Positions 1,965 to 37,224 of a stretch of DNA of 45,952 nt are shown one piece after another. The position numbers and the translations under genes are program-made. Each line of letters begins with the position of its first letter. The stretch's first letter is position 1. The stretch comes from Lachnospiraceae bacterium (GTDB lineage: Bacteria > Bacillota > Clostridia > Lachnospirales > Lachnospiraceae): NCBI GenBank assembly GCA_017457865.1, contig JAFTGN010000001.1, forward strand, positions 1 to 45,952, read 5' to 3'. The notes beneath the pieces are model-generated. The model made no database searches, was not told the origin of the DNA, and saw only the letters and a list, made by a program, of their open reading frames with translations.

Positions 1965-2015
1965 ATGAGTGAAGAAATATTAAGTGCAGGGATTGGCATA
2001 GGAACGACAACATAA
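1965..2015 (+). pseudogene. Possible EutA N-terminal remnant (ethanolamine ammonia-lyase reactivase)
   Basis: A 16-codon frame reads MSEEILSAGIGIGTTT and then stops. It resembles the opening of EutA, whose ASKHA-type phosphate loop begins ILSVGIDIGTTTTQ. Nothing after the stop continues the family. Just upstream, short frames ending in RLERYKGKADE suggest the tail of another lost gene. The stretch 1703-2112 otherwise shows no intact gene. The match is short, so this is a suggestion of a decayed eut locus, not proof. Confidence 0.35.
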
Positions 2016-2112
2016 TCCCTTGGTAAATCAAACCGATTTTGTTGGCAGTAAACCCATAGGTTTTATAGGTGAAAATCCTTATTTTACAAGCTGTTTTTAT
2101 GTTGGAAAAATA

Positions 2113-2130
2113 TTGTTAAAATTTTGACAA
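2113..2130. promoter_or_regulatory. Rex-type redox operator
   Basis: TTGTTAAAATTTTGACAA matches the clostridial Rex consensus TTGTTAA-N4-TTAACAA at all but one position. Rex represses fermentative and NADH-oxidising genes when NADH/NAD+ is low and leaves DNA when NADH rises. The site ends 17 bp before the -35 box of the promoter that serves the malate dehydrogenase locus. A poorer copy (TTGTTTTGTCTTGACAG, 2138-2154) overlaps that -35 box. Confidence 0.6.
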
Positions 2131-2147
2131 ATTCCAGTTGTTTTGTC

Positions 2148-2176
2148 TTGACAGTGTTAAAAATAGACGATATAAT
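2148..2176 (+). promoter_or_regulatory. Consensus sigma-A promoter of the succinate-pathway locus
   Basis: TTGACA (2148-2153), a 17-bp spacer and TATAAT (2171-2176) match the housekeeping consensus at all 12 positions. The start point would fall near 2183, giving a leader of about 150 nt before the malate dehydrogenase start at 2332. A 12-bp palindrome, TTTTCTAGAAAA, lies in the leader at 2218-2229. Confidence 0.85.
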
Positions 2177-2331
2177 GAAGGAAAATCAAGAGTTTTTAGG
2201 CTATTTTTGGAGACTTGTTTTCTAGAAAATCGGTTTTGAAATTCTTTATTTGTATTTCATCAGAGCCTGGCAAATGTGCATCAAACGGGTTCTGACCAGT
2301 TACACTTATTATAACAGTAAGGAGAGAAGAG

Positions 2332-3279
2332 ATGGGAGCAAAAATTACAATCATTGGTGCCGGCAGCGTAGGAGCAACGATTGCATATACAATGTCTAAC
2401 ATTGACATTGCATCTGAGATTGTGTTGATCGACATCAACAAAAAGAAGGTAGAAGGCGAAGTATTAGATATTACACAGGGAACTGCATTTAGAGGTCCGA
2501 TCAGTATCGTAGGCGGAGAGTATGAAGATGCAGCCGGTTCTGATATCGTCATCATTACTTCCGGTGTGGGCAGAAAGCCTGGCCAGACCAGAATCGACCT
2601 GACACAGACCAATGTCAACATCTTAAAGAGCATTACACCGGAAATCGTAAAGTATGCGCCAGACGCAAAATATATCATTGTCAGCAATCCAGTTGATGTA
2701 CTTACTTATGTATTTACAAAGATTTCCGGTTTGCCAGAGAGCCAGATTGTAGGTTCCGGTACACTGCTTGATACTGCAAGACTGCGTTCCACTATGTCTG
2801 ATTTCTATAAGGTAAATCAGAGAAACTGTCACGCATTCGTATTTGGTGAGCATGGTGATTCCTGTTTCGTTCCGTGGTCCTGTGCAAAGATTTCCGGTAT
2901 TCCGTTGGATCAGTACAAGAATCTGATGCCTGCAAGCATGGTTCCGAATGAAGAGTGGGATTGCGAGAAGGTAGAGGAGCATGTACGTACTTCCGGTGGT
3001 CAGATCATTGCCAATAAGGGTGCTACATTCTATGCCATCGCAAACTCTGTGATTGACCTTTGTAAGAAGCTGTTGTCCGCATATGATTCCATTGCGTGTC
3101 TTTCTTCCATGATGCATGGCGAGTATGGCATTGAGGATGTATGTTTGAACGTGCTGACAGTAGTAGGTCCGAACGGCATCAAGGGTAAGATTGAGATGCC
3201 GATGACCGATGAGGAAGTGGCAAAGCTGAAGCACAGCGCAGATGTATTAAAGGATGTCATCAACCAGATTGAAATCTGA
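2332..3279 (+). CDS. mdh: NAD-dependent malate dehydrogenase of the LDH-like type
   Basis: This 315-residue enzyme of the lactate/malate dehydrogenase superfamily has the nucleotide-binding GAGSVGA (9-15), Asp34 at the end of the second strand (NAD rather than NADP), the GTLLDTARLR segment and the catalytic GEHGD. In the substrate loop GVGRKPGQTR, Arg81 takes the place of the glutamine that marks lactate dehydrogenases. Arginine there binds the second carboxylate of oxaloacetate, so malate dehydrogenase is preferred. It would reduce oxaloacetate with NADH in the cytosol. It is the first gene after the promoter, with AAGGAGAG upstream of the ATG, and is followed by fumarase, which fits the same pathway. 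Confidence 0.8.
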   Translation: MGAKITIIGAGSVGATIAYTMSNIDIASEIVLIDINKKKVEGEVLDITQGTAFRGPISIVGGEYEDAAGSDIVIITSGVGRKPGQTRIDLTQTNVNILKSITPEIVKYAPDAKYIIVSNPVDVLTYVFTKISGLPESQIVGSGTLLDTARLRSTMSDFYKVNQRNCHAFVFGEHGDSCFVPWSCAKISGIPLDQYKNLMPASMVPNEEWDCEKVEEHVRTSGGQIIANKGATFYAIANSVIDLCKKLLSAYDSIACLSSMMHGEYGIEDVCLNVLTVVGPNGIKGKIEMPMTDEEVAKLKHSADVLKDVINQIEI

Positions 3280-3300
3280 TCATCATACAGAAAGCAAATG

Positions 3301-3344
3301 ACAGCAGATTCTCTTTTTCACAAGTAGGAGAAGGAATCTGCTGT
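3301..3344 (+). other. Intercistronic hairpin between mdh and fumC
   Basis: ACAGCAGATTC (3301-3311) and GAATCTGCTGT (3334-3344) are perfect complements, and the inner bases TCTC/GAGA can add to the stem. There is no T-run after it, so it is more likely an mRNA stability or processing element than a terminator. fumC probably shares the upstream transcript. Confidence 0.5.
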
Positions 3345-3418
3345 TGTGATGCATAAAATAGCAACCCGGGATATCCGGATTAGGCCTGACAGACAGGCTG
3401 GAATTGGAGGAAATTCGC

Positions 3419-4783
3419 ATGGAGTATCGTATTGAAAAAGATACTATGGGTGAAATGCAGGTACCTGCTGACAGATACTGGGCTGCCCAGACACAGAGAA
3501 GTTACCAGAACTTCAAGATTGGCGGCGAGCTGATGCCAAGAGAGATCACCAGAGCATTTGGGTATCTGAAGAAGGGCGCAGCCATTGCCAACCACAACTT
3601 AGGCAAGCTGGATGAGACGAAGAAAGACATCATCTCTCAGGCATGTGATGAAGTGATCTCCGGTGTGCTGTTTGACCATTTCCCATTGGTGGTATGGCAG
3701 ACCGGCAGCGGTACACAGTCCAACATGAATGCCAATGAGGTCATTGCAAACAGAGGTAATGAAATCTACGGCAGCAAGCTGCTGCATCCAAATGATCACA
3801 TCAACATGTCCCAGAGTTCCAATGATACCTTCCCGACCGCACTGCATATCGCTGCTGCCATGAGCATTGAGGACAACCTGTTCCCGGCTCTGGATCAGAT
3901 GATTGCCACTTTAAAGCGGTTAGAGGATGAGAATACAGAGTATGTGAAGAGTGGACGTACCCATTTACAGGATGCAGTGCCGATCCGCTTCTCCCAGGAG
4001 ATCAGCGGTTGGAGATATATGTTAGAGAACAACAAGGCACAGTTAGAGGCTTCTCTGCCAGGTCTGAAGCGTCTGGCGCTGGGCGGTACCGCAGTTGGTA
4101 CTGGTTTAAATGCGCCGGAAGGCTTTGGTGAGGAAGTGGCAAAGGTAATCAGCGAACTGACCGGTAAGGATTTTACCACTTCTCCAAACAAGTTCCACGC
4201 ACTGACATCCAAGGATGATGTGACATTTGCCCACGGTGCACTGAAGGCGCTGGCAGCAAACCTGATGAAGATTGCCAATGACGTGCGCTGGCTGGCAAGC
4301 GGTCCTAGATGCGGTCTGGGTGAGATCTCCATTCCGGAGAATGAGCCGGGCTCTTCTATCATGCCGGGTAAGGTGAATCCGACCCAGTGTGAGTCTATGA
4401 CCATGGTAGCCGTACAGGTGATGGGAAATGATGCGGCAGTAGGCATTGCGGCATCTCAGGGTAACTTCGAACTGAATGTATTTATGCCGGTGATCGCATA
4501 TAACTTCTTACAGTCTGTACGTCTGTTAGCAGACGGTCTGGTATCCTTCCATGACAATTGTGTGGTAGGCATCAAGGCAAATCCGGAGAAGATGAAGCAC
4601 AACCTGTACAATTCTCTCATGCTGGTGACTGCGCTGAATCCATACATTGGATATGAGAATGCAGCCAAGACTGCAAAGAAGGCTTATAAGGAGAACATTT
4701 CTCTGAAGGAAGCTTGTGTAGAATTAGGTTTCCTGACCGCAGAGCGGTTTGACGAAGTATTCCACCCGGAAGAGATGGCGTAA
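3419..4783 (+). CDS. fumC: Fumarate hydratase class II
   Basis: The protein has 454 residues, as in FumC. Visible landmarks are TGSGTQSNMNANEV, SSNDTFPTALHIA and the superfamily signature GSSIMPGKVNPTQCE. The GK-NPTQCE form is that of fumarases; aspartases carry AKVNPVIPE. The enzyme is oxygen-stable and iron-free, and interconverts malate and fumarate. Here it would run in the dehydrating direction, feeding the fumarate reductase subunits encoded about 8 kb downstream. The start at 3419 is chosen because GGAGGAAA precedes it at good spacing. Confidence 0.9.
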   Translation: MEYRIEKDTMGEMQVPADRYWAAQTQRSYQNFKIGGELMPREITRAFGYLKKGAAIANHNLGKLDETKKDIISQACDEVISGVLFDHFPLVVWQTGSGTQSNMNANEVIANRGNEIYGSKLLHPNDHINMSQSSNDTFPTALHIAAAMSIEDNLFPALDQMIATLKRLEDENTEYVKSGRTHLQDAVPIRFSQEISGWRYMLENNKAQLEASLPGLKRLALGGTAVGTGLNAPEGFGEEVAKVISELTGKDFTTSPNKFHALTSKDDVTFAHGALKALAANLMKIANDVRWLASGPRCGLGEISIPENEPGSSIMPGKVNPTQCESMTMVAVQVMGNDAAVGIAASQGNFELNVFMPVIAYNFLQSVRLLADGLVSFHDNCVVGIKANPEKMKHNLYNSLMLVTALNPYIGYENAAKTAKKAYKENISLKEACVELGFLTAERFDEVFHPEEMA

Positions 4784-4984
4784 GGATTGCAGGTGTCTGG
4801 GAACGGTTTCTCAGAATGATCAGGAAGACAGGACAGACGGATGGATGTGGGATGACATGCATCCGGACTGTCCATCAAACAGGGGAATTGGACAGGGATT
4901 CTGTGAAACCGCAGAAAGGAATGGCGGTGGCAGGAATGCACAATTCCCTGAACACAAAAATCATATAAGGAGGGTGTGCACAAC

Positions 4985-5767
4985 ATGGTTTACAGTTATT
5001 ATCCAGGTTGTACCCTGAAGACAAAGGCAAAAGATTTAGACATGTATGCCAGAAAATCAGCAGAAGCCTTAGGTATTACACTGGAAGAAATTCCGGAGTG
5101 GCAGTGCTGTGGCGGTGTGTATCCGCAGGCACAGGATGAGATTGCGACAAAGTTATCTTCTGTTCGTACTTTAAACAGTGCCAAGGAAGCCGGCAATGAT
5201 CTGGTGACCGTCTGTTCCGCCTGTCATCATGTGTTAAAGAGAGTCAATGACGACATGGCAAACAATGAGTACATCAGAACCAGAGCCAACAATTACATGG
5301 AGTTAGAAGAGCCTTATGCAGGCGAGACAAAGGTGCTTCACTATCTGGAACTGTTGCGTGATGTAGTAGGCTTTGATGAGTTGAAGAAGAAGGTAGTCAA
5401 TCCATTAAAGGGTAAGAAGATTGCTGCCTATTACGGATGTCTGCTCCTTCGTCCAAGCGGTGTCATGGGATTGGATGATCCGGAAGATCCATCTATTATG
5501 GAGGATTTCATCAAGGCACTGGGTGCCACTCCTGTGGTATATCCGTTCCGCAATGAGTGTTGCGGCGGCTATGTGACACTGCAGGATCAGTCTCTGGCAC
5601 AGAAGAAGAGCAACAAGGTACTGGGTTCCGCAGAAGCACAGGGTGCAGAGATGGTGATCACAGCCTGTCCATTGTGTATGTATAATCTGAAGAACAACGG
5701 TACAGAGCATGATCTGCCGGTGGTATATTTCACAGAGATTCTGGCAGAAGCATTAGGCGTAAAGTAA
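4985..5767 (+). CDS. hdrB: Heterodisulfide reductase subunit B-like protein (two CCG domains)
   Basis: The protein has 260 residues and two complete cysteine-rich CCG modules. The first is C9-x31-C41C42-x34-C77xxC80, the second C152-x39-C192C193-x34-C228xxC231. In methanogen HdrB these cysteines hold two noncubane [4Fe-4S] clusters that cleave the CoM-S-S-CoB disulfide. All ligands are present, so an active disulfide- or thiol-type site is possible, although this bacterium should not make those coenzymes. The start at 4985 follows AAGGAGGG by ten bases. About 200 bp without a gene separate it from fumC, and hdrC follows after 13 bp. In context it probably passes electrons to the fumarate reductase subunits. 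Confidence 0.85.
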   Translation: MVYSYYPGCTLKTKAKDLDMYARKSAEALGITLEEIPEWQCCGGVYPQAQDEIATKLSSVRTLNSAKEAGNDLVTVCSACHHVLKRVNDDMANNEYIRTRANNYMELEEPYAGETKVLHYLELLRDVVGFDELKKKVVNPLKGKKIAAYYGCLLLRPSGVMGLDDPEDPSIMEDFIKALGATPVVYPFRNECCGGYVTLQDQSLAQKKSNKVLGSAEAQGAEMVITACPLCMYNLKNNGTEHDLPVVYFTEILAEALGVK

Positions 5768-5780
5768 GGAGGATGGATTC

Positions 5781-6170
5781 ATGAGTAGTGTGAACAATGA
5801 AAGAGAAGAAATCCTTCGCATGAGCGGTGTGGATCCCACCAAGTGTATGAAGTGCGGTAAGTGCTCCGGTACCTGCCCTGCATTTGATGCAATGGAGTAT
5901 CATCCACATCAGTTTGTATCGATGGTGAACAAGGGCAATATCGAGCCGTTAAAGCAGTCCAATGCAATCTGGCAGTGTTTATCCTGCTTTGCATGTATGG
6001 AGCGCTGTCCAAGAGACGTAAAGCCGGCGAAGCTGATTGAAGCAGTTCGTCTGACTGTGATCCGGGAACAGGGCATGAACCATTTAGAGTCCGAGAACGT
6101 ACCTTGCATGCTGGATCCGGAACTGCCCCAGCAGGCGATTGTCAGTGCATTCAGAAAGTACAGCAAGTAA
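5781..6170 (+). CDS. hdrC: Heterodisulfide reductase subunit C-like ferredoxin
   Basis: This is a 129-residue protein with two [4Fe-4S] motifs, CMKCGKCSGTCP at about residues 22-33 and CLSCFACMERCP at about 57-69. That is the size and layout of HdrC, the small subunit carrying electrons from HdrA to HdrB. A strong AAGGAGG lies upstream. There is no membrane helix, in contrast to the membrane-bound HdrE systems, so a soluble HdrABC is indicated. Confidence 0.85.
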   Translation: MSSVNNEREEILRMSGVDPTKCMKCGKCSGTCPAFDAMEYHPHQFVSMVNKGNIEPLKQSNAIWQCLSCFACMERCPRDVKPAKLIEAVRLTVIREQGMNHLESENVPCMLDPELPQQAIVSAFRKYSK

Positions 6171-6195
6171 GTTCGTGTGAAGGCAACAATTGTGT

Positions 6196-6239
6196 AAAAC
6201 AGAAAATAAGACCACTTGCGAGGAAGTTGTCTGTTTTTT
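6196..6239 (+). terminator. Terminator-like hairpin inside the operon, between hdrC and hdrA
   Basis: AAAACAGA (6196-6203) pairs with TCTGTTTT (6230-6237), CACTT pairs with AAGTTG in the middle, and the 3' side ends in six T. It looks like a weak intrinsic terminator. Since hdrA and at least seven more genes follow in the same direction, it is more likely a partial terminator or attenuator that lowers downstream expression relative to hdrBC. Confidence 0.45.
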
Positions 6240-6278
6240 GTAGAACATACCAAAAATATAAGAAGGTGGAAGTAAGAC

Positions 6279-8270
6279 ATGCATAAAATAGGTGTATTTG
6301 TATGTTGGTGCGGAAGCAATATTGCGGCTACAGTAGATGTAAAGGCTGTTGCAGAGGCTGCCAGCAAGGAGCCTTGTGTTGTATATGCGACCGACTATCA
6401 ATATATGTGTTCTGAAAGTGGACAGAACCTGATTATCGATGCCATCAAGGAGCATAACCTGACAGGCGTTGTCATCTGTTCCTGTTCTCCGAGAATGCAT
6501 GAGACGACATTCAGAAAGGCTGCACAGAAGGCCGGTCTGAATCCGTACATGGTAGAAATCGCAAATATCCGTGAGCAGTGTTCCTGGATTCACAAGGATA
6601 TGGCAGAAGCTACCGCAAAGGCGATCGTATTGGCAAGAGCGGCCATTGCAAAGGTACAGCTGAACAAGCCGTTGATTGCCGGTGAGAGTGAAGTGACCAA
6701 GAGATGTCTGGTCATCGGCGGTGGTATTGCCGGGATCCAGACCGCACTGGATGTAGCAGAAGCAGGATTTCCGGTTGATATTGTAGAGAAGAAGCCAACC
6801 ATCGGTGGTAAGATGGCACAGTTAGACAAGACATTCCCGACTTTGGACTGTGCAGCCTGTATTTTGACACCTCGTATGGTAGAGGCGGGCGCCCATGAGA
6901 ATATCACACTGCATACATATAGTGAAGTAGAAGAAGTTTCCGGTTTTGTAGGAAACTTTACCGTCAAGATCCGCAAGAAGGCGAGAAAAGTCAAAATGGA
7001 TCTGTGTACCGGATGTGGTCTGTGTACCGAGAAGTGTCCGATGAAGAAACAGCCAAACGAGTTCAACATGGGTCTGGACAAGAGAGGCGCAATCTATATT
7101 CCATTTGCACAGGCAGTACCGAAGGTACCGGTGATCGATGTAGAAGCCTGTCTGAAATTCAAGACCGGCAAGTGTGGTATCTGTTCCAAGGTATGTACGG
7201 CCGGTGCCATTGATTACGAGCAGCAGGATGAGATCATCGAGCAGAAGTATGGTGCAATCGTTCTGGCGACCGGTTTTGACCAGATCAAGCCAACCAAGTT
7301 TGGTGAACTTGGATATTCCCAGTATCCGGACGTTGTCACATCCTTAGAGTATGAGCGTCTGATGAATGCGGCAGGTCCGACCAAGGGACATCTGCTTCGT
7401 CCGTCTGATGGCAAGCCGCCGAAGGAAATTGTATTCGTACAGTGCGTAGGCTCCAGAGGACAGTCCTGCAGAGATAAGAGTTATTGCTCCAAGGTATGTT
7501 GTATGTATACCGCAAAGCATGCGATCCTGACAAAGGATCATTATCCGGATACCAATATCCATGTATTCTACATTGATGAGAGAACACCGGGTAAGAACTT
7601 CGATGAGTTCTATCGCCGTGCCGTAGAGCAGTATGGTGTAGATTATATTAAGGGTCAGGTTGGTAAGGTTTACGAAGAGAACGGCAAGCTGATGGTACAG
7701 GGTTCTGACCTGTTAGCAAATGAGCAGATCACCCTTGCTGCGGATATGGTAGTGCTTGCTGCTGCAATCGAACCGGACAAGACTGCAAGAAGTCTGGGAA
7801 CCATGCTGACTGCAAGTATGGATACCAATGACTTCTTTACGGAGGCACATGCAAAGCTGCGTCCGGTAGAGTCTCCCACCGCCGGTGTATTCCTGTCCGG
7901 TATGTGCCAGGGTCCAAAGGATATTCCGGAGACCGTATCCCAGGCAGGCGCTGCTGCGGTAAAGGTCATCGGCCTGCTGACCAAGGATAAGCTGCTTGGC
8001 AACCCATGTGTGGCACATTCTGACGAGATGCTGTGTAACGGATGTTCCCAGTGTGCACGTGTCTGCCCATATGGTGCCATTACTTATGTAGACAAAGAAT
8101 TCAGAGTTCCCGGACCAAAGAGAGTAGAGACCAGACGTGTGGCTGTGGTCAACGAAGCAGTCTGCCAGGGTTGTGGTGCATGTACCGTTACCTGTCCATC
8201 TACTGCTATGGATTTGAAGGGATTCAGCAATAGACAGATTATGTCGGAGGTAGATGCAATATGCAAGTAA
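6279..8270 (+). CDS. hdrA: Heterodisulfide reductase subunit A-like flavoprotein, candidate electron-bifurcating subunit
   Basis: The protein has 663 residues and the full HdrA layout. The N-terminal part has CWCG and further cysteines. A thioredoxin-reductase-like FAD domain follows with GGGIAG near residue 147 and a conserved DCAACILTPRM segment. There is a ferredoxin insert (CTGCGLCTEKCP near 242, with a second cluster CGICSKVC after it), and two C-terminal [4Fe-4S] motifs lie near 586 and 629. In methanogens HdrA splits an electron pair between ferredoxin and HdrBC, and in Hdr-Flx systems it takes the pair from NADH. Its stop overlaps the start of the MvhD-like gene, so assembly with it is likely. 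Confidence 0.9.
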   Translation: MHKIGVFVCWCGSNIAATVDVKAVAEAASKEPCVVYATDYQYMCSESGQNLIIDAIKEHNLTGVVICSCSPRMHETTFRKAAQKAGLNPYMVEIANIREQCSWIHKDMAEATAKAIVLARAAIAKVQLNKPLIAGESEVTKRCLVIGGGIAGIQTALDVAEAGFPVDIVEKKPTIGGKMAQLDKTFPTLDCAACILTPRMVEAGAHENITLHTYSEVEEVSGFVGNFTVKIRKKARKVKMDLCTGCGLCTEKCPMKKQPNEFNMGLDKRGAIYIPFAQAVPKVPVIDVEACLKFKTGKCGICSKVCTAGAIDYEQQDEIIEQKYGAIVLATGFDQIKPTKFGELGYSQYPDVVTSLEYERLMNAAGPTKGHLLRPSDGKPPKEIVFVQCVGSRGQSCRDKSYCSKVCCMYTAKHAILTKDHYPDTNIHVFYIDERTPGKNFDEFYRRAVEQYGVDYIKGQVGKVYEENGKLMVQGSDLLANEQITLAADMVVLAAAIEPDKTARSLGTMLTASMDTNDFFTEAHAKLRPVESPTAGVFLSGMCQGPKDIPETVSQAGAAAVKVIGLLTKDKLLGNPCVAHSDEMLCNGCSQCARVCPYGAITYVDKEFRVPGPKRVETRRVAVVNEAVCQGCGACTVTCPSTAMDLKGFSNRQIMSEVDAICK

Positions 8271-8707
8271 ATGAATCATCCAAAGAATTTAAACCATGTA
8301 TCGTTGCATTCTGCTGCAACTGGTGTAGTTATGCCGGTGCGGATCTGGCTGGTTCCAACCGTCTCAGCTATCCGGCAGATGTCAAGATCATCCGTGTACC
8401 ATGTTCCTGCCGTGTGAATCCGCTGTTTATTTTAAGAGCGTTCCAGAGAGGGGCAGACGGTGTCATCCTGTGTGGATGTCATCCGGGCGACTGCCATTAC
8501 ACCACAGGTAACTATTACGCAAGAAGACGTATGACCATGCTGTTCAGTATGTTAGACTATCTGGGAATCGAGAAAGAACGTACCAGAGTGGAATGGGTAT
8601 CAGCAGCAGAAGGTGCAAAGTTTGCAGCAACGATGAATGATTTCATCAGCACTGTCCAGAGTCTGGGCGAGAACAGAAAGTTGAGGGACTTAAGATGCAA
8701 GGAATAA
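8261..8707 (+). CDS. flxD: MvhD/FlxD-type [2Fe-2S] electron-transfer subunit
   Basis: The protein has 148 residues, the usual size of the hydrogenase iron-sulfur (MvhD) family. Cysteines lie in CNWCSYAGAD, CSCR and CGCHPGDCHY, which hold a [2Fe-2S] cluster. The family connects an electron donor (hydrogenase, formate dehydrogenase or NADH module) to HdrA. The gene overlaps hdrA by 10 bp and the next gene by 13 bp, so translation is coupled. No hydrogenase genes are nearby; the donor module here is the FAD/NAD protein downstream, as in bacterial FlxABCD-HdrABC sets. Confidence 0.8.
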   Translation: MQVNESSKEFKPCIVAFCCNWCSYAGADLAGSNRLSYPADVKIIRVPCSCRVNPLFILRAFQRGADGVILCGCHPGDCHYTTGNYYARRRMTMLFSMLDYLGIEKERTRVEWVSAAEGAKFAATMNDFISTVQSLGENRKLRDLRCKE

Positions 8708-9657
8708 TTGAAAAGGTAACAGAACTGTTAGACAATGGAACTGTTGACAGAGTACTTGCATGGAAGGCCGGTGAATTTTCTTATGATCGTACTCCGGCAG
8801 TCTTTGACAAGGAATCCGGTCTGTACGGGCTGGTATATGACAGTTTCTGTGTCAACAATTTAAGCAAGTATCTGATTGAAGAGAGCAAGAAGGACGGTAA
8901 GGTTCTGGTGCTGATGAAGCCATGTGATTCTTACGGTCTGAACATGCTGATCAAGGAACACAGAGTGGATCGGGAGAAGATTTATGTATTGGGCGTACCG
9001 TGCAAGTGCAAGGTCAGCGTAGACAAGATCAAGGCAACCGGTCTGACCGGTATCCTGGATATCGTAGAGGAAGGCAACGACATCAAAGTGACCACCGTTT
9101 ATGGGGACACTACATTAGACAGAAAAGACGTGCTGTGCGATAAGTGTATGGTATGTAAGGACAAGGTTGTAGTCGTATACGATGAGAAGATCGAGTCTGA
9201 TGAAACTGCCGGTATCGAGAAATTAGACCGTATGGCAGAGGTAGAGGCATTAGAGGCCATGACGCCAGATGAGCGATTTAATTTCTGGAGAAGCCAGCTG
9301 TCGAAATGTATCCGCTGTAATGCCTGCCGGAATGTATGTCCGATCTGCAGTTGTACCAAGTGTGTATTTGACAATGACAACACCGGTATTTCTTCCAAGG
9401 CCAATGTAGACAGTTTTGAAGAGAATATGTTCCACATCGTCCGTGCATACCATGTGGCGGGACGTTGTACAGACTGTGGCGAGTGCAGCCGTGTCTGCCC
9501 ACAAAACATTCCGTTGCACCTGTTGAACCGTAAGTTCATTAAGGAGATGAATGAGCTGTATGGTACCTATCAGGCTGGAACAGATGCAGAAGCAAAGGAT
9601 CCGTTGACTGCTTTCACCAAGGAAGATGCGGAACCAAGCGTGATTTATAATCGATAG
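8695..9657 (+). CDS. 4Fe-4S dicluster electron-transfer protein of the Hdr-Flx module (FlxC-like)
   Basis: The protein has 320 residues. The first half has CDSYG, CKCK and CDKCMVCK cysteine clusters and resembles F420-hydrogenase beta/FrhB-like proteins. The second half has a ferredoxin pair with CIRCNACRNVCPICSCTKC near residues 203-220 and CTDCGECSRVCP near 260. It starts inside the MvhD-like gene, and a 20-bp gap leads to the next iron-sulfur subunit. By position it matches one of the two iron-sulfur components of FlxABCD. Which one (B or C) cannot be settled by eye, so no symbol is given. Confidence 0.7.
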   Translation: MQGIIEKVTELLDNGTVDRVLAWKAGEFSYDRTPAVFDKESGLYGLVYDSFCVNNLSKYLIEESKKDGKVLVLMKPCDSYGLNMLIKEHRVDREKIYVLGVPCKCKVSVDKIKATGLTGILDIVEEGNDIKVTTVYGDTTLDRKDVLCDKCMVCKDKVVVVYDEKIESDETAGIEKLDRMAEVEALEAMTPDERFNFWRSQLSKCIRCNACRNVCPICSCTKCVFDNDNTGISSKANVDSFEENMFHIVRAYHVAGRCTDCGECSRVCPQNIPLHLLNRKFIKEMNELYGTYQAGTDAEAKDPLTAFTKEDAEPSVIYNR

Positions 9658-9677
9658 AAAGGCAGGGACAAGAAAAA

Positions 9678-10706
9678 ATGTTAAAATTTACAAGTGATCA
9701 GATGTCCACACTTTTTTCTGCAATCTCTGCAATGAAGACCTTATATGTACCGGTGGAAAAAGGTGGCGAAGTAACCTTTGGTGTATGGAGCGAGACAGAA
9801 AAAGTCCGTCTGGATGCATTAAAGACTGTAAAATCTGCCAAAGACCTGTTCTTCCCACAGGCAGAGACCATGATGGGATTCAAGATGGAAGGCAAGAACA
9901 TCGAAATCCAGGTTCCGGAAGAAAAGATGGACGAGTTCGTGGTATTTGGTGTACGTGCCTGTGATGCAAAGAGCTTTGAGGTACTGGACAATGTATTCTT
10001 AGCAGAGCCGGTGGATACCTATTATGCGCTGAGACGCAAGAGCGGTATTGTCATCTGTGCAGCATGTACCAGACCGGAAGAAAGTTGTTTCTGTAATGTA
10101 TTTGGCATCGATGCCACTGCTCCGGCAGGAGACATTGTGACATGGACAGTAGATGGTACATTATACTGGGAAGCAAAGACAGAAAAAGGTGAGGCGTTCA
10201 CTGCACAGCTGTCAGAGTATCTGGCAGAGGCAACGGCAGAAGAAGAGGCTGCTGTGGCAGCACAGAATGAGGCAGTAAAGGCGATCATTGCAAAGCTGCC
10301 ATATGCAAACCTGAAGGTAGACGGATTCACCGGAGACCGGATGATGGAGTATTTCAATTCTCCAAAGTGGGCTGAGCTGTATCAGGCATGTCTGGGATGT
10401 GGTACCTGTACCTTTGTATGCCCGACCTGTCAGTGTTATGATATTCGTGACTATGATACCGGACACGGCATCCAGAGATACCGCTGCTGGGATTCCTGTA
10501 TGTACTCCGAGTTTACCAAGATGGCAGGTGGTCAGCCTCGTCTGACCCAGTTAGAGAGATTCAGACAGAGATTTATGCACAAGTTGTTATATTATCCAAT
10601 GAACAACAATGGATTGTTCTCCTGTGTAGGCTGTGGCAGATGTGTGAACAAGTGCCCGATCTCTATGAATATCGCAAAAGTAATAAAGGCATTGGGGGAT
10701 GAATGA
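9678..10706 (+). CDS. 4Fe-4S protein of the AsrA/sulfhydrogenase-beta type (FlxB-like)
   Basis: The protein has 342 residues. The N-terminal domain carries FGVRACDAKSFEVLDNVF, typical of the anaerobic sulfite reductase A / sulfhydrogenase beta family, and a CAACTRPEESCFC cysteine group. Two C-terminal [4Fe-4S] motifs are CLGCGTCTFVCPTC (near 237) and CVGCGRCVNKCP (near 316). Such subunits sit next to a FAD/NAD reductase and carry its electrons onward. The last bases overlap the flavoprotein start (10703), giving tight coupling. Confidence 0.75.
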   Translation: MLKFTSDQMSTLFSAISAMKTLYVPVEKGGEVTFGVWSETEKVRLDALKTVKSAKDLFFPQAETMMGFKMEGKNIEIQVPEEKMDEFVVFGVRACDAKSFEVLDNVFLAEPVDTYYALRRKSGIVICAACTRPEESCFCNVFGIDATAPAGDIVTWTVDGTLYWEAKTEKGEAFTAQLSEYLAEATAEEEAAVAAQNEAVKAIIAKLPYANLKVDGFTGDRMMEYFNSPKWAELYQACLGCGTCTFVCPTCQCYDIRDYDTGHGIQRYRCWDSCMYSEFTKMAGGQPRLTQLERFRQRFMHKLLYYPMNNNGLFSCVGCGRCVNKCPISMNIAKVIKALGDE

Positions 10707-11545
10707 TGAGTGAGATCACAAGAGAGGATATGCATATCCCAAAGATTGGTATTGTCAGAGAGATTATTCAGGAAACACCGGACGTAAAGACCTTCCGTAT
10801 CAATGCACCGGACGGCAGTCCTCTGTTTGACCATATGCCTGGACAGTGTGCCATGATTTCCGTACCAGGCGTAGGAGAAGGTATGTTCTCCATTCCTTCT
10901 TCTCCGACCAACAGAGAGTATATGGAGTTTTCGATTAAGATGTGTGGTTGTCTGACAAGCTGGCTGCACAGCATGGAGCCAGGTCAGATGGTAACCGTCA
11001 GAGGTCCTCTGGGCAATCACTTCCCGGTAGAAAATGAGTTTATCGGAAAGGATATCCTGGTTATCGGTGGTGGTATCGGTATTGCACCGGTACGTTCCGT
11101 AGTGAAGTATATGCTGGATCACCGGCAAGATTATGGCCGTATTGATGTGGTATACGGTGCAAGATCCAAGGAAGATCTGGTATATTATGAAGAAATGTCC
11201 AAGGAATGGCCAAAGGTACCAAATACCTATGTACATCTGACCATTGACCGTGAGCAGGAAGGCTGGGACGGTCCGGTAGGATTCGTGCCAAACTATGTAA
11301 AGGAACTGAACTTCCCCACAGACAAGACTGTTATCATGTGTGGACCGCCAATCATGATCAAGTTTACACTGGCCGGTCTGATGGAGTTGGGATTCCAGAA
11401 GGAACAGGTTTACACTACCATGGAGCTTCGTATGAAGTGTGGCATCGGTAAGTGCGGACGCTGTAACATCGGTTCCAAGTATGTATGCAAAGATGGTCCG
11501 GTATTCCGCTTTGATGAGCTGGATGAACTGCCAAATGAGTATTAA
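10703..11545 (+). CDS. flxA: FAD/NAD(P)-binding reductase (FlxA/AsrB type)
   Basis: This 280-residue member of the ferredoxin-NADP reductase/PyrK group has the flavin region GMFSIPSSPTNREYMEFSIK, the nucleotide-binding GGGIGIAPVRSV near residues 120-131, and MCGPPIMIKF near 212. A C-terminal cysteine set, CGIGKCGRCNIG...C, holds a [2Fe-2S] cluster. This is the expected entry point for electrons from NADH. In FlxABCD-HdrABC the homologue oxidises NADH and hands electrons through the iron-sulfur subunits to HdrA. Overlap with the preceding gene suggests a stable subcomplex. Confidence 0.85.
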   Translation: MMSEITREDMHIPKIGIVREIIQETPDVKTFRINAPDGSPLFDHMPGQCAMISVPGVGEGMFSIPSSPTNREYMEFSIKMCGCLTSWLHSMEPGQMVTVRGPLGNHFPVENEFIGKDILVIGGGIGIAPVRSVVKYMLDHRQDYGRIDVVYGARSKEDLVYYEEMSKEWPKVPNTYVHLTIDREQEGWDGPVGFVPNYVKELNFPTDKTVIMCGPPIMIKFTLAGLMELGFQKEQVYTTMELRMKCGIGKCGRCNIGSKYVCKDGPVFRFDELDELPNEY

Positions 11546-11569
11546 TTAGATAAAGTAGGAGAAATGAAC

Positions 11570-12244
11570 ATGGAAGAAATGGTAAATGTATATTTATATG
11601 GTAAGAAGTATACCGTTCCTGCCAGCCTGACCATCATGGAAGCATTTGAGTATTCCGGATACCAGTTGGTTCGTGGCTGCGGCTGTAGAAATGGTTTCTG
11701 TGGTGCCTGCGCAACAATTTACAGAATCAAGGGCGAGCATATGCTCCATGGCTGTCTGGCTTGTTCCACTCAGGTAGCCGACAATATGTATGTGGCATCC
11801 ATTCCGTACTTCCCGTTAGAGAAGAAGATTTACAGCATCGAGGAGATCAAGCCAACCGAGCAGATCATGATGCAGTTATATCCGGAAATCTATTCCTGTG
11901 TAGGCTGTAATGCATGTACCAAGGCATGTACACAGCAGTTAAAGGTAATGCAGTACATTGCATATGCACAGCGTGGTGAGTATGAGAAGTGTGCGGAAAC
12001 TTCCTTCGACTGTGTGATGTGTGGCGTATGTTCCACCAGATGCCCTGCGGGTATCTCCCATCCACAGGTAGCGCTTCTGGCAAGAAGACTGACCGGTAAG
12101 TACATCAAGCCTGAGGCAAAGCACCTGACCCAGCGTGTAGAAGACATTGCAAACGGTGTATTTGATGATGCCGTGGCAGAAATCATGGGCAAGTCTGTAG
12201 ATGAGCTGAAGGATATGTACAACAACAGAGTAATCGAGAAGTAA
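11570..12244 (+). CDS. Fumarate reductase-type iron-sulfur subunit (TfrB/FrdB-like, without CCG domain)
   Basis: The protein has 224 residues. The N-terminal [2Fe-2S] ferredoxin domain has CGCRNGFCGAC and a later CLAC, followed by CVGCNACTKAC and CVMCGVCSTRCP for two cubane clusters. This resembles SdhB/FrdB and the front half of methanogen thiol:fumarate reductase TfrB. TfrB continues into an HdrB-like CCG domain, absent here; that function is encoded separately by the HdrB-like gene at 4985. ATG at 11570 is preferred over 11564 because AGGAGA then has normal spacing. It should link HdrBC with the flavoprotein that follows after 13 bp. Confidence 0.75.
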   Translation: MEEMVNVYLYGKKYTVPASLTIMEAFEYSGYQLVRGCGCRNGFCGACATIYRIKGEHMLHGCLACSTQVADNMYVASIPYFPLEKKIYSIEEIKPTEQIMMQLYPEIYSCVGCNACTKACTQQLKVMQYIAYAQRGEYEKCAETSFDCVMCGVCSTRCPAGISHPQVALLARRLTGKYIKPEAKHLTQRVEDIANGVFDDAVAEIMGKSVDELKDMYNNRVIEK

Positions 12245-12257
12245 GGGAGGAATCAAG

Positions 12258-13856
12258 ATGAGTTTACCATATACCGAGGAAATGCTCGAATCCATCAAAA
12301 AGGTAGAGGCAACCAGAGCAGAGCGTATGGCAAATGAGCCAAGACGTATGACTGCGGATGAAAAGGATGCTTTATTAGAGCAGTATCATCCGGACTACAA
12401 TCAGGAAAGCTTCGAAGAGATCATTGTAGGTCCGAACAAGGGACAGAAGGCTCCGAAGGAACTGAATGCTCTGTTGCAGGCAAACAGCCGGATCAAAGGA
12501 CTGGATATTGATCTGGAGCATCCGGATTATGACTGTGAAGTACTGGTGATCGGTGGCGGCGGAGCTGGTTCTTCCGCAGCGATCGAGGCCAATGAAGCTG
12601 GCGCAGATGTGATGATCGTCACCAAACTGCGTATCGGTGACGCCAACACCATGATGGCAGAGGGCGGTATCCAGGCAGCAGACAAAGAAAATGACTCCCC
12701 ACAGCAGCATTATCTGGATGTAATGGGCGGCGGTCACTTCAAGAACGTACCAGAGTTAGTAAAGAAGTTAGTAACAGAAGGTCCTGCAGCAGTGAACTGG
12801 CTGGATCATCTGGGTGTATTATTTGACAAAGATGAAAATGGTGTCATGATCACGACCCACGGCGGTGGTACTTCCAGAAAGAGAATGCATGCGGCAGCAG
12901 ACTACTCCGGTGCAGAGATCATGCGTGTCCTGCGTGATGAGGTCATCAACAGAGGCATTCCGGTCATCGAGTTTACCGTTGCCATTGAGATCATCAAGGA
13001 TGAGGAAGGCAAGGCAGCCGGTGCGGTTCTGATGAACCTGGAGACCAAGGAGATCATGGTGGCAAGAGCAAAGACTGTCATCATTGCAACCGGTGGTGCA
13101 GGCCGTATCCACTATCAGGGATTCCCAACTTCCAACCACTACGGTGCAACCGCAGACGGTCTGGTACTGGCTTACCGTGCAGGGGCAGAACTACTATATC
13201 AGGATACCTTACAGTATCACCCAACAGGTGTAGCATTCCCGGCACAGATTTACGGTGCGCTGGTAACAGAGAAGGTTCGTTCCATGGGCGCCATGTTCTG
13301 TAACAAGGATGGTGAGGCATTCATGCATCCACTGGAAACCCGTGACGTGGCTGCTTCCGGTGTCATTCGTGAGGTAGCAAGAGGAAACGGTATCCATACT
13401 CCACTGCGTGATGGTATCTGGTTGGATACTCCAATGATTGATGCCATTCATGGTGAAGGCACGCTGGAGAAGAGACTGCCAGGTATGCTGCGTATGTATT
13501 TAAGATACGACATCGATATGAGAAAGGTGCCGATTGTCATCTACCCGACTCTGCACTATCAGAACGGTGGTATCAAGATTACACCAGACGGTATGTCTGG
13601 TGTAGAGAACCTGTACGTAGCAGGTGAGGCAGTTGGTGGTATCCACGGACGTAACCGTCTGATGGGTAACTCTTTGCTGGACATCATCGTATTTGGCCGT
13701 AACGCAGGTCAGCAGGCAGGTAAGAAGTGTAAGGAAGTGACCCTTGGCAAGCTGACGCTGGCACATGTAGATGCCTATGCAAAAGAGTGTGAAGAGGCTG
13801 GCATCGTAACGGATCTGGTTTCTCCACAGCTGTTACCGGATTACAGAAGAAAGTAA
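12258..13856 (+). CDS. Soluble fumarate reductase flavoprotein subunit (TfrA/FrdA/NadB superfamily)
   Basis: The protein has 532 residues. An extension of about 90 residues precedes the FAD-binding GGGGAGSSAA near residue 98. Superfamily motifs follow: AEGGIQAA, the THGGGTSRKRM region, QYHPTG, a PTLHYQNGG segment and GRNRLMGNSLLD. The histidine that binds FAD covalently in membrane-type FrdA/SdhA (before AEGG) is not seen (GDANTMMAEGG), so FAD is probably noncovalent as in TfrA and aspartate oxidase. Predicted activity is fumarate + 2e + 2H -> succinate in the cytosol. No FrdC/D anchor genes exist. L-aspartate oxidase is an alternative, but the paired iron-sulfur subunit and fumarase argue for fumarate. 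Confidence 0.8.
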   Translation: MSLPYTEEMLESIKKVEATRAERMANEPRRMTADEKDALLEQYHPDYNQESFEEIIVGPNKGQKAPKELNALLQANSRIKGLDIDLEHPDYDCEVLVIGGGGAGSSAAIEANEAGADVMIVTKLRIGDANTMMAEGGIQAADKENDSPQQHYLDVMGGGHFKNVPELVKKLVTEGPAAVNWLDHLGVLFDKDENGVMITTHGGGTSRKRMHAAADYSGAEIMRVLRDEVINRGIPVIEFTVAIEIIKDEEGKAAGAVLMNLETKEIMVARAKTVIIATGGAGRIHYQGFPTSNHYGATADGLVLAYRAGAELLYQDTLQYHPTGVAFPAQIYGALVTEKVRSMGAMFCNKDGEAFMHPLETRDVAASGVIREVARGNGIHTPLRDGIWLDTPMIDAIHGEGTLEKRLPGMLRMYLRYDIDMRKVPIVIYPTLHYQNGGIKITPDGMSGVENLYVAGEAVGGIHGRNRLMGNSLLDIIVFGRNAGQQAGKKCKEVTLGKLTLAHVDAYAKECEEAGIVTDLVSPQLLPDYRRK

Positions 13857-13950
13857 TGAGGCAAGATACAGGCACAAACAGATTCCCTGAATTGCTTCGT
13901 GAAGATGGTGGAATGTCTTTTTACTTGAAATAAGAAGAGATATGACCAAA

Positions 13951-13985
13951 ACCCGCAATTCTTTTGAACAAGAATTGCGGGTTTC
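13951..13985 (+). terminator. Intrinsic terminator after the fumarate reductase genes
   Basis: CCCGCAATTCTT (from 13952) pairs exactly with AAGAATTGCGGG (to 13981), with a six-base loop and a following T-rich TTTCT. It closes the 2.3-13.9 kb locus, so the exporter downstream likely has its own promoter. Confidence 0.8.
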
Positions 13986-14093
13986 TGTGTGTGGATTTTG
14001 GCACAATGCTGATTTTGTAAAAATAGCTTGCATTGTGTCGAAAAAAGTTGTAATTTTAGTATGGTTTGGTAACAATTAGAACCAAGTATATAC

Positions 14094-14109
14094 GAAGTGT
14101 AAACGCTTC
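14094..14109. promoter_or_regulatory. Palindromic operator-like site before the exporter gene
   Basis: GAAGTGTAAACGCTTC is an imperfect 16-bp palindrome containing TGTAAACGCTTCA, which resembles a degenerate CcpA cre site (consensus TGWAARCGYTWNCW, two mismatches). It lies immediately before the ribosome site at 14115, downstream of any likely promoter, where a bound repressor would block elongation. Confidence 0.35.
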
Positions 14110-14124
14110 AGAATGGAGGACAAA

Positions 14125-15327
14125 ATGGATATCATCACATCTTTTTTTGTGTTGAAATCTAGCACGCTGGTGCTGTTTAATGTATTTTTAATTGCCGTTG
14201 TCGGTTATCTTTTGGGAAGAATCAAGATCAAGGGGATTTCCCTTGGTACTGCAGGTGTGTTCATCGTTGCGTTGGTTGCAGGACATTTGAGTACCGCAAT
14301 GCCCAATTCCATTTTTGCAGTTGAGATGCCCAAATTCGTACAGAACATTGGTTTGGTATTGTTTGTGGCTTCTGTTGGTTTTATTGCAGGACCAAACTTC
14401 TTTAGTAATCTGAAGAAAAATGCCAAGTCTTACGTATTTCTTGGCCTTGTCATCATTGCAGCTGGTACACTGGCCTGTGTCATCGTAACACTATGTACAA
14501 ATGTGGATGCCGGGTTGGCAGCAGGTATGCTTTCCGGTGCATTGACCAGTACACCAGGCTTCTCTTCTGCAAAAGAGGCGATTTCAACACTGGGTGGTTC
14601 TGTAGATGAAGTATCTGTCGGATACGGTATTGCATATCCATTTGGCGTCATTGGAGTGGTATTATTCGTGCAGTTGGTTCCAAAGCTGTTAAAAGTGAAT
14701 ATGGAACAGGAACGCAAGGCACTCGTAGTGGTAGATGATGGTGCAGTGGTAAATAAGAAACTGCCAGAAAAAATGCTGGAGATTGATTCTCTGGGCTTTG
14801 GTGTCTTCTTTATGGCGGCGATCGCAGGTGTGCTGATTGGTGGAATTACCATTCCATTGCCAGGTGGTGCAAACTTCTCTCTGGGCAATACCGGTGGTGT
14901 GCTGCTGGCGGCATTGCTGTTTGGTCACTTCGGACATGCAGGAAAGGTGAGTTTCCAGATTCAGAAGAATGTGTTAAAGACATTCCAGGAACTGGGATTG
15001 ATGCTGTTCCTGATTGGTGCCGGTGTAGAAGGCGGCGCAAAGTTTGTGACAACATTGTCTGAGTATGGTCCGATCTTGTTTGTATATGGTGCATTTATGA
15101 CATTGCTGCCATTGATTGTTGGATTTGTCATTGCAAAGTATGTATTGAAGCTGAGCCTGCTCAACAACTTAGGCTCTATTACAGGTGGTATGACCAGTAC
15201 ACCTGCACTTGGTACTTTGATCAGTGTATCCGGTACAGATGATGTGGCTTCTGCATATGCATCTACATATCCGATTGCTTTGGTTGCAGTGGTCATTGCC
15301 ACACAGTTGGTAGTCACATTTCTGTAA
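14125..15327 (+). CDS. AspT/YidE/SucE-family dicarboxylate transporter, likely succinate exporter
   Basis: The protein has 400 residues and is almost entirely hydrophobic helices. It carries the two repeated family elements: SGALTSTPGFSSAKEA near residue 140 and GGMTSTPALGTL near 350. Members include the aspartate:alanine exchanger AspT and the succinate exporter SucE of Corynebacterium. AspT and YidE carry soluble TrkA_C domains in the middle, which are lacking here, so this is a compact form. ATG at 14125 is preferred because GGAGGA at 14115-14120 overlaps the upstream in-frame ATG. Placement after a complete oxaloacetate-to-succinate gene set favours C4-dicarboxylate export. Amino-acid exchange remains possible. 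Confidence 0.7.
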   Translation: MDIITSFFVLKSSTLVLFNVFLIAVVGYLLGRIKIKGISLGTAGVFIVALVAGHLSTAMPNSIFAVEMPKFVQNIGLVLFVASVGFIAGPNFFSNLKKNAKSYVFLGLVIIAAGTLACVIVTLCTNVDAGLAAGMLSGALTSTPGFSSAKEAISTLGGSVDEVSVGYGIAYPFGVIGVVLFVQLVPKLLKVNMEQERKALVVVDDGAVVNKKLPEKMLEIDSLGFGVFFMAAIAGVLIGGITIPLPGGANFSLGNTGGVLLAALLFGHFGHAGKVSFQIQKNVLKTFQELGLMLFLIGAGVEGGAKFVTTLSEYGPILFVYGAFMTLLPLIVGFVIAKYVLKLSLLNNLGSITGGMTSTPALGTLISVSGTDDVASAYASTYPIALVAVVIATQLVVTFL

Positions 15328-15348
15328 TGAAAAATGATTGTGTATCCG

Positions 15349-15383
15349 GGACAGCCCCTAATGAAACAGGGGCTGTCCTTTTT
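15349..15383 (+). terminator. Intrinsic terminator of the exporter gene
   Basis: GGACAGCCCCT (15349-15359) pairs exactly with AGGGGCTGTCC (15368-15378) and is followed by five T. Confidence 0.9.
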
Positions 15384-15436
15384 CTGTAATAGTGATGCAA
15401 CAAAAGATTTCTGTCATCAAGAAAGTGAGACTTGCT

Positions 15437-16360
15437 TTACAAAAACAGTGTAAACATGACAGGAATGGTGATCAATGCCAGTATATGAGAAACAAGCACC
15501 ATGCTGGCTCCCACTGTGGTATCTCTGCCATAAGCTGCCGGGAAGATGATCACATTCATTCCAATGGGCATAGCCAAAGCACATAAAGCAACCAGAATGA
15601 CATCATCACTGGTATGCAAAAGCTTCAAAATAATGGTCACAACGGCAGGAATCACCACAAGGCGGAGCAGGGAGATCACATATACTTTTGGAATGGTCAT
15701 CAGCTTGCGGATGCCAAAACCCCCTACGATCATTCCGGTCAGCAGCATGGCCACAGGAAACATACAGTTGGCAGTGGCGGAAATGGCTGACTCTATAAAG
15801 GCAGGAACCGGAATCTGGGTGACTCCCAGAACAATCCCCAGTACCAGTGCAATGCAGATGGGATTGCACAGAGACTTGATACTGAATTTGCTGTTGTTTT
15901 GGTTGGGGATCAACCAGGAAACACAGACAGAAAAAGTCAGGATATTCAAGGGGATGGTAAACATCATATAGTCAAATAATGCCTCTTCACCGAAAATACC
16001 AAGCACCAGTGCATTTCCCATAAATCCATAGTTAGATACGATAAAAGCATGACGGTACAGCCGCTGGTGAAAGGATTTTGCTGAAAATCTTTTTCCTACA
16101 AAAAAAGCAATTAATGTAATGGGAAGAAAAATCAGTACACTGTAAATGAGCAGCGTGCTTTTGACTTCCAGATTTGCAAGAGAACATCTGGACATAAAAG
16201 TATGCATGATCAATGCCGGAAGCAGCAGATTGCTTTCCAGCTTGGACAGAACACTGCCTGCGTTTTTGGGAACGAGGGATTTTCGTTTTAAAATAAACCC
16301 TGCAAAAATAAACAAAAAGACCATACACATTTGATTCAATGAGGTGAAAAAGACTTCCAT
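15437..16360 (-). CDS. AEC (auxin efflux carrier) family transporter
   Basis: The protein has 307 residues and about ten hydrophobic segments in two halves, with the AEC-type openings FAGFILKRKSLVPKNAG and, in the second half, PVAMLLTGMIVGG. Bacterial AEC members include malate permease MleP and malonate carriers; many are uncharacterised organic-acid transporters. The start at 16360 is chosen because GGAGA lies seven bases before it; an in-frame ATG 12 bases upstream overlaps that site. It is divergent from a LysR-type regulator, the usual arrangement for a regulated transporter. C4-dicarboxylate transport is an inference from the neighbouring locus. Confidence 0.75.
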   Translation of the reverse strand: MEVFFTSLNQMCMVFLFIFAGFILKRKSLVPKNAGSVLSKLESNLLLPALIMHTFMSRCSLANLEVKSTLLIYSVLIFLPITLIAFFVGKRFSAKSFHQRLYRHAFIVSNYGFMGNALVLGIFGEEALFDYMMFTIPLNILTFSVCVSWLIPNQNNSKFSIKSLCNPICIALVLGIVLGVTQIPVPAFIESAISATANCMFPVAMLLTGMIVGGFGIRKLMTIPKVYVISLLRLVVIPAVVTIILKLLHTSDDVILVALCALAMPIGMNVIIFPAAYGRDTTVGASMVLVSHILALITIPVMFTLFL

Positions 16361-35918: not shown

Positions 35919-35940
35919 AGAAATCACCTCTTTTTTGTTT

Positions 35941-37173: not shown

Positions 37174-37224
37174 ATTCTTGAGGGTTAATATTAACGAGGA
37201 ATGCGTTTTTGTGGAGGTGTTAGA

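Follow-up and report, generated by a model that had tools for sequence, protein, structure and literature searches.

Fumarate reductase genes placed beside those of a Flx-Hdr complex are already on record. In Pseudoclostridium thermosuccinogenes, a "succinate operon" combines a fumarase with seven genes tagged Flx-Hdr, a pair of fumarate reductase genes and a putative transporter for succinate, and a coupling of this operon to ferredoxin reduction was proposed (PMC7282089). In tubeworm symbionts and in Thioflavicoccus mobilis, the gene clusters of the reductive tricarboxylic acid cycle have tfrAB interspersed with flxABCD-hdrABC (PMC6315080, PMC11636981), and direct electron delivery from Flx-Hdr to TfrAB was proposed for both (PMC6315080; repeated in PMC11636981). 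The bifurcation hypothesis is not new, having been put forward in 2019-2020 for P. thermosuccinogenes and the tubeworm symbionts; no biochemical characterisation of such a complex was found in the literature searched, which was mostly without subscription papers. The title of a 2014 paper on Desulfovibrio alaskensis reportedly joins fumarate reduction, Hdr-Flox and Rnf. The present analysis concerns a nine-gene set, hdrBCA-flxDCBA-tfrBA, lying within a twelve-gene locus of a Lachnospiraceae bacterium (the host); the window, that is the whole stretch of DNA analysed, is 45,952 nucleotides long (contig JAFTGN010000001.1, assembly GCA_017457865.1). We consider it fairly probable that these nine genes encode one soluble NADH-oxidising complex, bifurcating electrons between ferredoxin and fumarate. 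The features of the locus are as follows.

2148-2176, + strand: sigma-70-type promoter match, TTGACA-17-TATAAT (12/12), the sole 12/12 match within 1900-15700
2332-3279, + strand: mdh, malate dehydrogenase of the LDH-like type, with an LDH-type fold and Arg at the substrate-specificity position
3404-4783, + strand: fumC, class II fumarate hydratase (TIGR00979, 726.6 bits, cut-off 664.75)
4976-5767, + strand: hdrB, with two complete CCG (non-cubane cluster) motifs; nearest models, both sub-cut-off, SdhE of methylmenaquinol:fumarate reductase (MFR) and HdrB
5781-6170, + strand: hdrC, with two [4Fe-4S] motifs
6279-8270, + strand: hdrA, HdrA2-like FAD flavoprotein, presumed site of bifurcation
8261-8707, + strand: flxD (mvhD), delta subunit, equal to the C-terminal part of HdrA2
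8695-9657, + strand: flxC, FdhB-like iron-sulfur subunit, homologue of FdhB
9678-10706, + strand: flxB, HydB/AsrA-like dicluster [4Fe-4S] subunit resembling sulfhydrogenase beta
10703-11545, + strand: flxA, HydG/AsrB-like subunit with FAD, NAD(P) and [2Fe-2S], resembling sulfhydrogenase gamma, the putative electron entry
11564-12244, + strand: tfrB, with [2Fe-2S] and two full [4Fe-4S] motifs and no CCG domain
12258-13856, + strand: tfrA, fumarate reductase flavoprotein, five catalytic residues kept, Asn130 at the covalent-FAD His position
14113-15327, + strand: AspT/YidE/YbjL-type transporter by model matches, candidate dicarboxylate (succinate) exporter
15348-15379, + strand: intrinsic terminator-like hairpin of 12 pairs with a T-rich tail, the longest such hairpin

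According to the list of open reading frames (ORFs) and to domain scans, the twelve genes from mdh to the exporter all lie on the + strand in 2148-15383 of the window, and this stretch reads as one transcription unit. Between hdrB and tfrA the intergenic gaps range from -13 to +108 bp and include three overlaps, and the outer gaps measure 124 bp (mdh-fumC), 192 bp (fumC-hdrB) and 256 bp (tfrA-exporter). Since promoter-like and terminator-like sites are about as numerous in the region as in shuffled sequences (22 vs 22.7 and 12 vs 10.4, respectively), just the individual sites at 2148-2176 and 15348-15379 are informative. No Rfam RNA element was found in the window at the gathering threshold. 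The initial annotation had described one co-directional gene set leading from oxaloacetate to exported succinate, in which a fumarate reductase pair lacking a membrane anchor adjoins HdrABC, an MvhD-like subunit, two iron-sulfur subunits and one FAD/NAD subunit of the Flx type. This description is upheld: all twelve genes are present with domains assigned, the domain matches give the same subunit composition, and no membrane-anchor gene occurs among the genes of the unit, judged by gene content with no transmembrane prediction made.

Compared by gene list, the locus shares with the P. thermosuccinogenes operon a fumarase, seven flx-hdr genes, two fumarate reductase genes and a transporter; P. 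thermosuccinogenes has Rnf and Ech, whereas the present host has neither Rnf nor a NiFe hydrogenase and carries mdh within the unit. The tubeworm symbiont clusters, compared by description, belong to autotrophic CO2 fixation and include korABCD and Rnf genes, whereas the unit described here would serve fermentative succinate formation. FlxABCD-HdrABC of Desulfovibrio vulgaris has like subunit types by name and family, but its partner is DsrC and its role lies in ethanol metabolism (Ramos 2015, as cited in PMC10084766). The Mvh- and Fdh-HdrABC complexes of methanogens (5odc, 7bkb, 8rvu) contain homologues of HdrABC and, in the Fdh forms, an FdhB related to FlxC; they use H2 or formate as donor and heterodisulfide as acceptor, whereas NAD(P)H and fumarate are proposed here. 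To these earlier systems the present analysis adds the co-conservation of the genes within the family, the three arrangements in which the nine genes recur, the finding of the halves of methanogen TfrB as a separate TfrB and HdrB, and a host without Rnf, NiFe hydrogenase or UbiA.

Co-conservation of the hdr-flx and tfr genes, set beforehand as the test that could refute the proposal, is tight within the family. In a sample of 250 Lachnospiraceae genomes, scored genome by genome for the presence of TfrA and HdrA, TfrA occurs in 23/250 and HdrA in 27/250, and HdrA is present in 23/23 of the TfrA genomes (Fisher p 9e-29, uncorrected for kinship). As for the four HdrA-only genomes, one (G163) ends within tfrB at a contig end and the other three bear a distinct HdrA, of 54-56% identity. 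The nine genes stand in order on a single contig in 20 of the 23 family genomes other than the host's own, and are split at contig ends in the remaining 3. A set of named loci, the best 80 of at least 586 confirmed relatives, gives the same picture, the nine genes being contiguous and in order in 56/80. Contig ends cut the other 24; in 16 of these flxA at least is still visible, in 6 only tfrB and in 2 nothing upstream, and none contradicts the arrangement; a chance neighbourhood is ruled out by these counts. The 80 loci are close relatives (69-85% identity) that overlap the family sample, the contigs of G077 and L193 being equally long at 131153, so that the two sets of counts are not independent and common inheritance accounts for part of their agreement. 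The check proposed beforehand also took in synteny with fumC and mdh; the order hdrBCA-flx-tfrBA is kept, while the flanks are looser, with mdh upstream of hdrB in 45/56, fumC in 28/56 and a transporter downstream in 36 of the stretches fetched around the full loci. Cultured carriers include Blautia glucerasea, [Clostridium] asparagiforme DSM 15981, Clostridium sp. Marseille-P3244 and Ohessyouella blattaphilus. In one of the 20 genomes with the ordered set (G098, locus L064) an internal TAA divides hdrA into two open frames, and the rest of the set was found; the interruption is either a sequencing error or the mark of a decaying gene.

The seven contiguous hdr-flx genes are of the types found in FlxABCD-HdrABC, and the cofactor ligands of HdrA, HdrB and HdrC are intact. 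HdrA matches 5odc_A over residues 3-660 of 663 (666 bits). In alignments filtered by length and identity, its cluster Cys are kept in 33/33 rows, and 8 Cys of HdrC and 10 Cys of HdrB, both CCG motifs of the latter being intact, are kept in 36/36 rows. Residues E359 and K413 of HdrA are also kept in 33/33 rows; they align with E356 and K409 of 5odc, which we take to be important for the flavin. With its full length and its flavin-site and ferredoxin-domain residues, this HdrA is predicted to belong to the bifurcating type. Both halves of FlxC show homology to FdhB from the Hdr-Fdh complexes of known structure (7bkb_E, 123 bits), and the counterparts of FlxB and FlxA in sulfhydrogenase 1 (9nez) are its beta and gamma subunits, respectively; these matches make a chain of cofactors from NAD(P)H to HdrA plausible.

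The same complex could work without bifurcation, Hdr-Flx being a soluble NADH dehydrogenase that feeds TfrAB, with the ferredoxin branch of HdrA idle or directed inward to fumarate. In a host without Rnf and NiFe hydrogenase low-potential electrons would be less useful, and a 2026 scheme for Blautia luti has an NADH-dependent fumarate reductase and no bifurcation; this species shows viologen-dependent fumarate reductase activity, transcribes frdAB and forms succinate, and the main text of the report is without the terms Hdr and heterodisulfide (PMC12773636). Yet HdrA retains its length, its cluster Cys and its counterparts of E356 and K409 throughout the alignment, and a plain NADH:fumarate reductase would presumably need no HdrABC and MvhD. 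We hold this explanation to be unlikely, although it is the foremost of the alternatives considered.

The energetics are in agreement with bifurcation. With an E0' of +33 mV for fumarate (PMC5861303), the reaction was computed to yield -18 to -49 kJ/mol for NADH at -320 or -280 mV and ferredoxin at -420 or -500 mV, which bears out the earlier claim that ferredoxin reduction would be thermodynamically affordable. The same annotation had named Rnf as a user of the reduced ferredoxin, and here it fails for the host: in its genome, rated 100% complete, no Rnf was found over cut-off. Nor is Rnf (E<=1e-50) commoner in the family's TfrA carriers (20/23) than in its other genomes (203/227), and no enrichment is seen; in most carriers Rnf could nevertheless gain from reduced ferredoxin. 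The host genome has no NiFe hydrogenase and no single-chain pyruvate:ferredoxin oxidoreductase over cut-off, and contains an ATP-type phosphoenolpyruvate carboxykinase (PEPCK) and a single [FeFe] hydrogenase, of group B (626 bits, cut-off 450). A locus like that of a multi-subunit 2-oxoacid:ferredoxin oxidoreductase lies on contig C41 (21594-25051), and with this in place of the single-chain enzyme the ferredoxin supply of the host may be unusual. Group B [FeFe] hydrogenases are reported to reoxidise ferredoxin with formation of H2 in gut bacteria (PMC12578642), and in the absence of Rnf and the presence of one such hydrogenase the ferredoxin sink of the host is likely H2 or biosynthesis.

The top curated model of TfrA is that of the methanogen thiol:fumarate reductase (NF004900; 339 bits, yet below the cut-off of 718); the SdhA/FrdA model follows with 270 bits and that of L-aspartate oxidase with 259 bits, values so close that scores alone do not settle the substrate. 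A profile of 19 TfrA sequences aligned with some 400 residues of E. coli fumarate reductase, its top match being a succinate dehydrogenase subunit. The positions aligned with H232, E245, R287, H355 and R390 of FrdA, which we take to be the catalytic sites, are identical in 60/60 sequences, and the position of His44, presumably the covalent-FAD site, is Asn130 in TfrA and is so in 60/60 sequences; the FAD of TfrA is predicted to be non-covalent. In E. coli FrdA, a non-covalent FAD favours fumarate reduction over succinate oxidation. TfrB, of 226 aa, keeps each Cys of its cluster motifs in 54/54 rows of the alignment (filtered as above), and its [4Fe-4S] motifs are both complete with four Cys, where quinol-linked enzymes carry a [3Fe-4S]. 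The earlier assignment of the pair as a fumarate reductase is thus supported, at the level of sequence, by the five kept catalytic residues.

A different substrate has also to be weighed, TfrAB reducing another enoate of the acrylate or cinnamate type, oxidising succinate or acting like L-aspartate oxidase, with mdh and fumC incidental. Urocanate reductase (6t85) is among the matches of the TfrA profile, the bit scores do not separate the members, and flavin reductases from this superfamily are numerous in gut bacteria. With the catalytic positions of FrdA invariant, a methanogen fumarate reductase as top model, an iron-sulfur partner present and Asn130 pointing to a non-covalent FAD, this explanation appears very improbable; the neighbours of tfrBA at loci elsewhere in the phylum, a fumarase pair with malic enzyme (L084) and pyruvate carboxylase (L081), speak against it as well.

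Two other identities were considered and rejected. A quinol:fumarate reductase (FrdABCD) is contradicted by the lack of an anchor gene in the unit, of UbiA and of the covalent-FAD His; no UbiA-family match (UbiA/MenA) was found in the host genome, control genomes being positive in 14/14, which makes a menaquinol-linked enzyme unlikely. Nor is TfrB clearly of the SdhB/FrdB kind, since searches with a profile and with a single sequence yielded weak matches only.

The link between the two modules would be HdrB, which scores 143.8 bits with the SdhE model (cut-off 500) and 136.5 bits with the HdrB model and reaches neither cut-off. In methanogens TfrB has a fused HdrB-like CCG half, which corresponds here to the separate HdrB: on the NCBIfam model of methanogen TfrB (488 positions, cut-off 385), TfrB covers 17-93 (32 bits) and HdrB 265-487 (40 bits). 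The existence of such a fused chain speaks for HdrB and TfrB being in contact here. The CCG domain of methanogen TfrB acts in thiol oxidation. SdhE of the 8-methylmenaquinol:fumarate reductase SdhABE, a relative of HdrB that accompanies a fumarate reductase pair as here, is a second precedent for a partner of the HdrB type; SdhABE is quinol-linked, the scores found here are far under its cut-offs (224 bits vs 1100 for TfrA on its SdhA model), and no UbiA/MenA was found in the host. We infer that HdrB acts as a wire and not as a disulfide reductase.

Alternatively, two enzymes could be joined through a soluble thiol/disulfide carrier, Hdr-Flx reducing a disulfide and the thiol driving TfrAB. 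In favour of this, HdrB has its two CCG motifs undamaged in every row, and DsrC reportedly interacts with Flx-Hdr in D. vulgaris (PMC10504309). TfrB, however, is without the CCG domain of the methanogen model, so TfrAB alone would have no thiol site, and no DsrC-like gene was seen within the unit, the remaining genome not having been searched. A carrier of this kind seems to us improbable, and the direct connection of HdrB to TfrB is preferred.

Under the proposed mechanism, NADH would deliver its electrons to the FAD and [2Fe-2S] of FlxA, from which they would pass through FlxB, FlxC and FlxD to the FAD of HdrA, where the pair would be split. The low-potential electron would leave by the ferredoxin-like domain of HdrA to ferredoxin (Fd), and the high-potential electron would travel via HdrC and the pair of non-cubane clusters in HdrB to TfrB and the FAD of TfrA, where fumarate would be reduced; the net reaction would be 2 NADH + Fd(ox) + fumarate -> 2 NAD+ + Fd(red) + succinate. 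The products of mdh and fumC would make fumarate from oxaloacetate, PEPCK being present in the host, and the AspT-type transporter would take succinate out of the cell. Reduced ferredoxin would go in the host to the group B [FeFe] hydrogenase, giving H2, or to biosynthesis, and not to Rnf.

The genes at either end of the unit are assigned as follows. The mdh product exceeds the NCBIfam cut-offs of both the L-LDH and the malate dehydrogenase models; its specificity residue is Arg in the 15/15 rows bearing a residue (16 rows, one gapped, matches below 50% identity being excluded), and Arg at this position presumably means malate as substrate. The start of fumC is given as TTG, with an ATG 15 bases further in. 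Immediately downstream of the unit lie a transporter of the auxin-efflux-carrier type (15437-16429, - strand), a family that includes malate permeases, and a LysR regulator (16713-17594, + strand), possibly for C4-acid uptake and control of the unit.

The association was also followed in a phylum sample of 398 genomes, in which all 39 TfrA loci were inspected. These loci, with TfrA at 51-64% identity, belong to 38 genomes other than the host's own, and the next matches are at 40% or below. The order tfrBA-hdrBCA-flxDCBA occurs at 4 loci outside the family and hdrCBA-flxDCBA-tfrBA at 1 (L115). At 11 loci (L108 and L112 being cut upstream) hdrCBA is accompanied by a second, larger HdrA-like protein and MvhD; of these larger proteins, those of L092 and L105 only were scanned, and the one from L105 has a GltD/Nfn-like part while that from L092 has just HdrA parts. 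Four loci have hdrCB with tfrBA and no local hdrA, and all four genomes have HdrA elsewhere. Another 16 are without local hdr, and one locus is cut. The label cut was given to L077 and L093; at L089, L091 and L119, which have no local hdr, the contig extends less than 3.3 kb upstream. In a TfrA tree built by a quick method with no bootstrap, the four-locus order forms one well-supported branch apart from that of the family, and L115 sits on a long branch whose placement is unsure. The nine-gene association is thus rearranged yet kept, which argues for function, and it is not universal.

Several points weigh against a dedicated bifurcating complex. Seventeen of the 38 genomes have tfrBA without local hdr, and while 13 of them have HdrA elsewhere, no HdrA was found at E<=1e-30 in the other 4 of the 17. 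At L085 tfrBA has cytochrome c and FMN-binding genes alongside, and L106 joins it by similar layout only. The Flx-Hdr partner in D. vulgaris is the disulfide protein DsrC, so HdrB may have a thiol partner (PMC10084766, PMC10504309), and in the Riftia symbiont tfrAB departed from the differential-expression pattern of the remaining cluster (PMC11636981). The scores behind the fusion argument are low, and HdrC too matches the methanogen TfrB model, at 134-220 (30 bits). The TfrB profile search gave no SdhB/FrdB chain beyond 1e-6, so that this likeness is weak, and without Rnf and NiFe hydrogenase a gain in ferredoxin yields no ion gradient by those routes here. TfrBA thus looks most like a fumarate reductase unit able to take electrons from several donors, one that is tied to Hdr-Flx within the family of the window. 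For the host locus we infer one physical complex, electron transfer from HdrB to TfrB, bifurcation, NADH over NADPH as donor, and succinate as the cargo of the exporter.

The phylum loci gave further observations. At L085 (G288), the genes ahead of tfrBA encode a pair of multihaem cytochromes of the NapC/NirT type and an iron-sulfur protein that binds FMN, and L106 (G340) has a like layout, the one protein scanned giving no match; TfrBA at these two loci would have a different donor, probably membrane-linked. Among the loci without hdr, the fumarase pair adjoining tfrBA at L084 is of class I. The tfrBA neighbourhood of L117 (G282) contains a protein with CoA-ligase and citrate-synthase domains and that of L118 (G329) an aconitase, which points to a reductive citrate branch. 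In G499, G523, G282 and G329, HdrA matches of nearly full length each contain a single in-frame TGA and may be selenocysteine-containing HdrA; G499 has 15 and G523 has 19 HdrA-like matches, some of them pieces of one protein.

Elsewhere in the window, two adjacent ORFs (18346-19338 and 19374-20480, + strand) resemble, on separate proteins, the CARF and (weakly) the HEPN portion of Csx1/Csm6, and may be a split Csx1, a CRISPR type III effector. The genes at 34214-41950 form a defence-like cluster, with AbiEii, proteins like ShosT/PsyrT and AbiLi/AriA, and a type IV restriction enzyme whose domains include PLD, helicase and DUF3427.

Taken together, these data led us to a wider statement, to which we give about an even chance: the nine genes would encode a single soluble bifurcating NADH:ferredoxin/fumarate reductase in which the non-cubane clusters of HdrB serve as wiring to the fumarate reductase and reduce no disulfide, a thiol-free class of Hdr enzyme present in many gut Lachnospiraceae, through which Rnf-free species would dispose of NADH electrons as H2 together with succinate. 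If this is true, succinate formation in some gut Lachnospiraceae (23/250) would give extra energy or an H2-evolving electron outlet, a gain exceeding what a plain NADH-dependent fumarate reductase offers, and HdrABC would be able to serve a non-thiol acceptor. The tight co-conservation, together with the cultured carriers, makes the hypothesis of 2019 directly testable.

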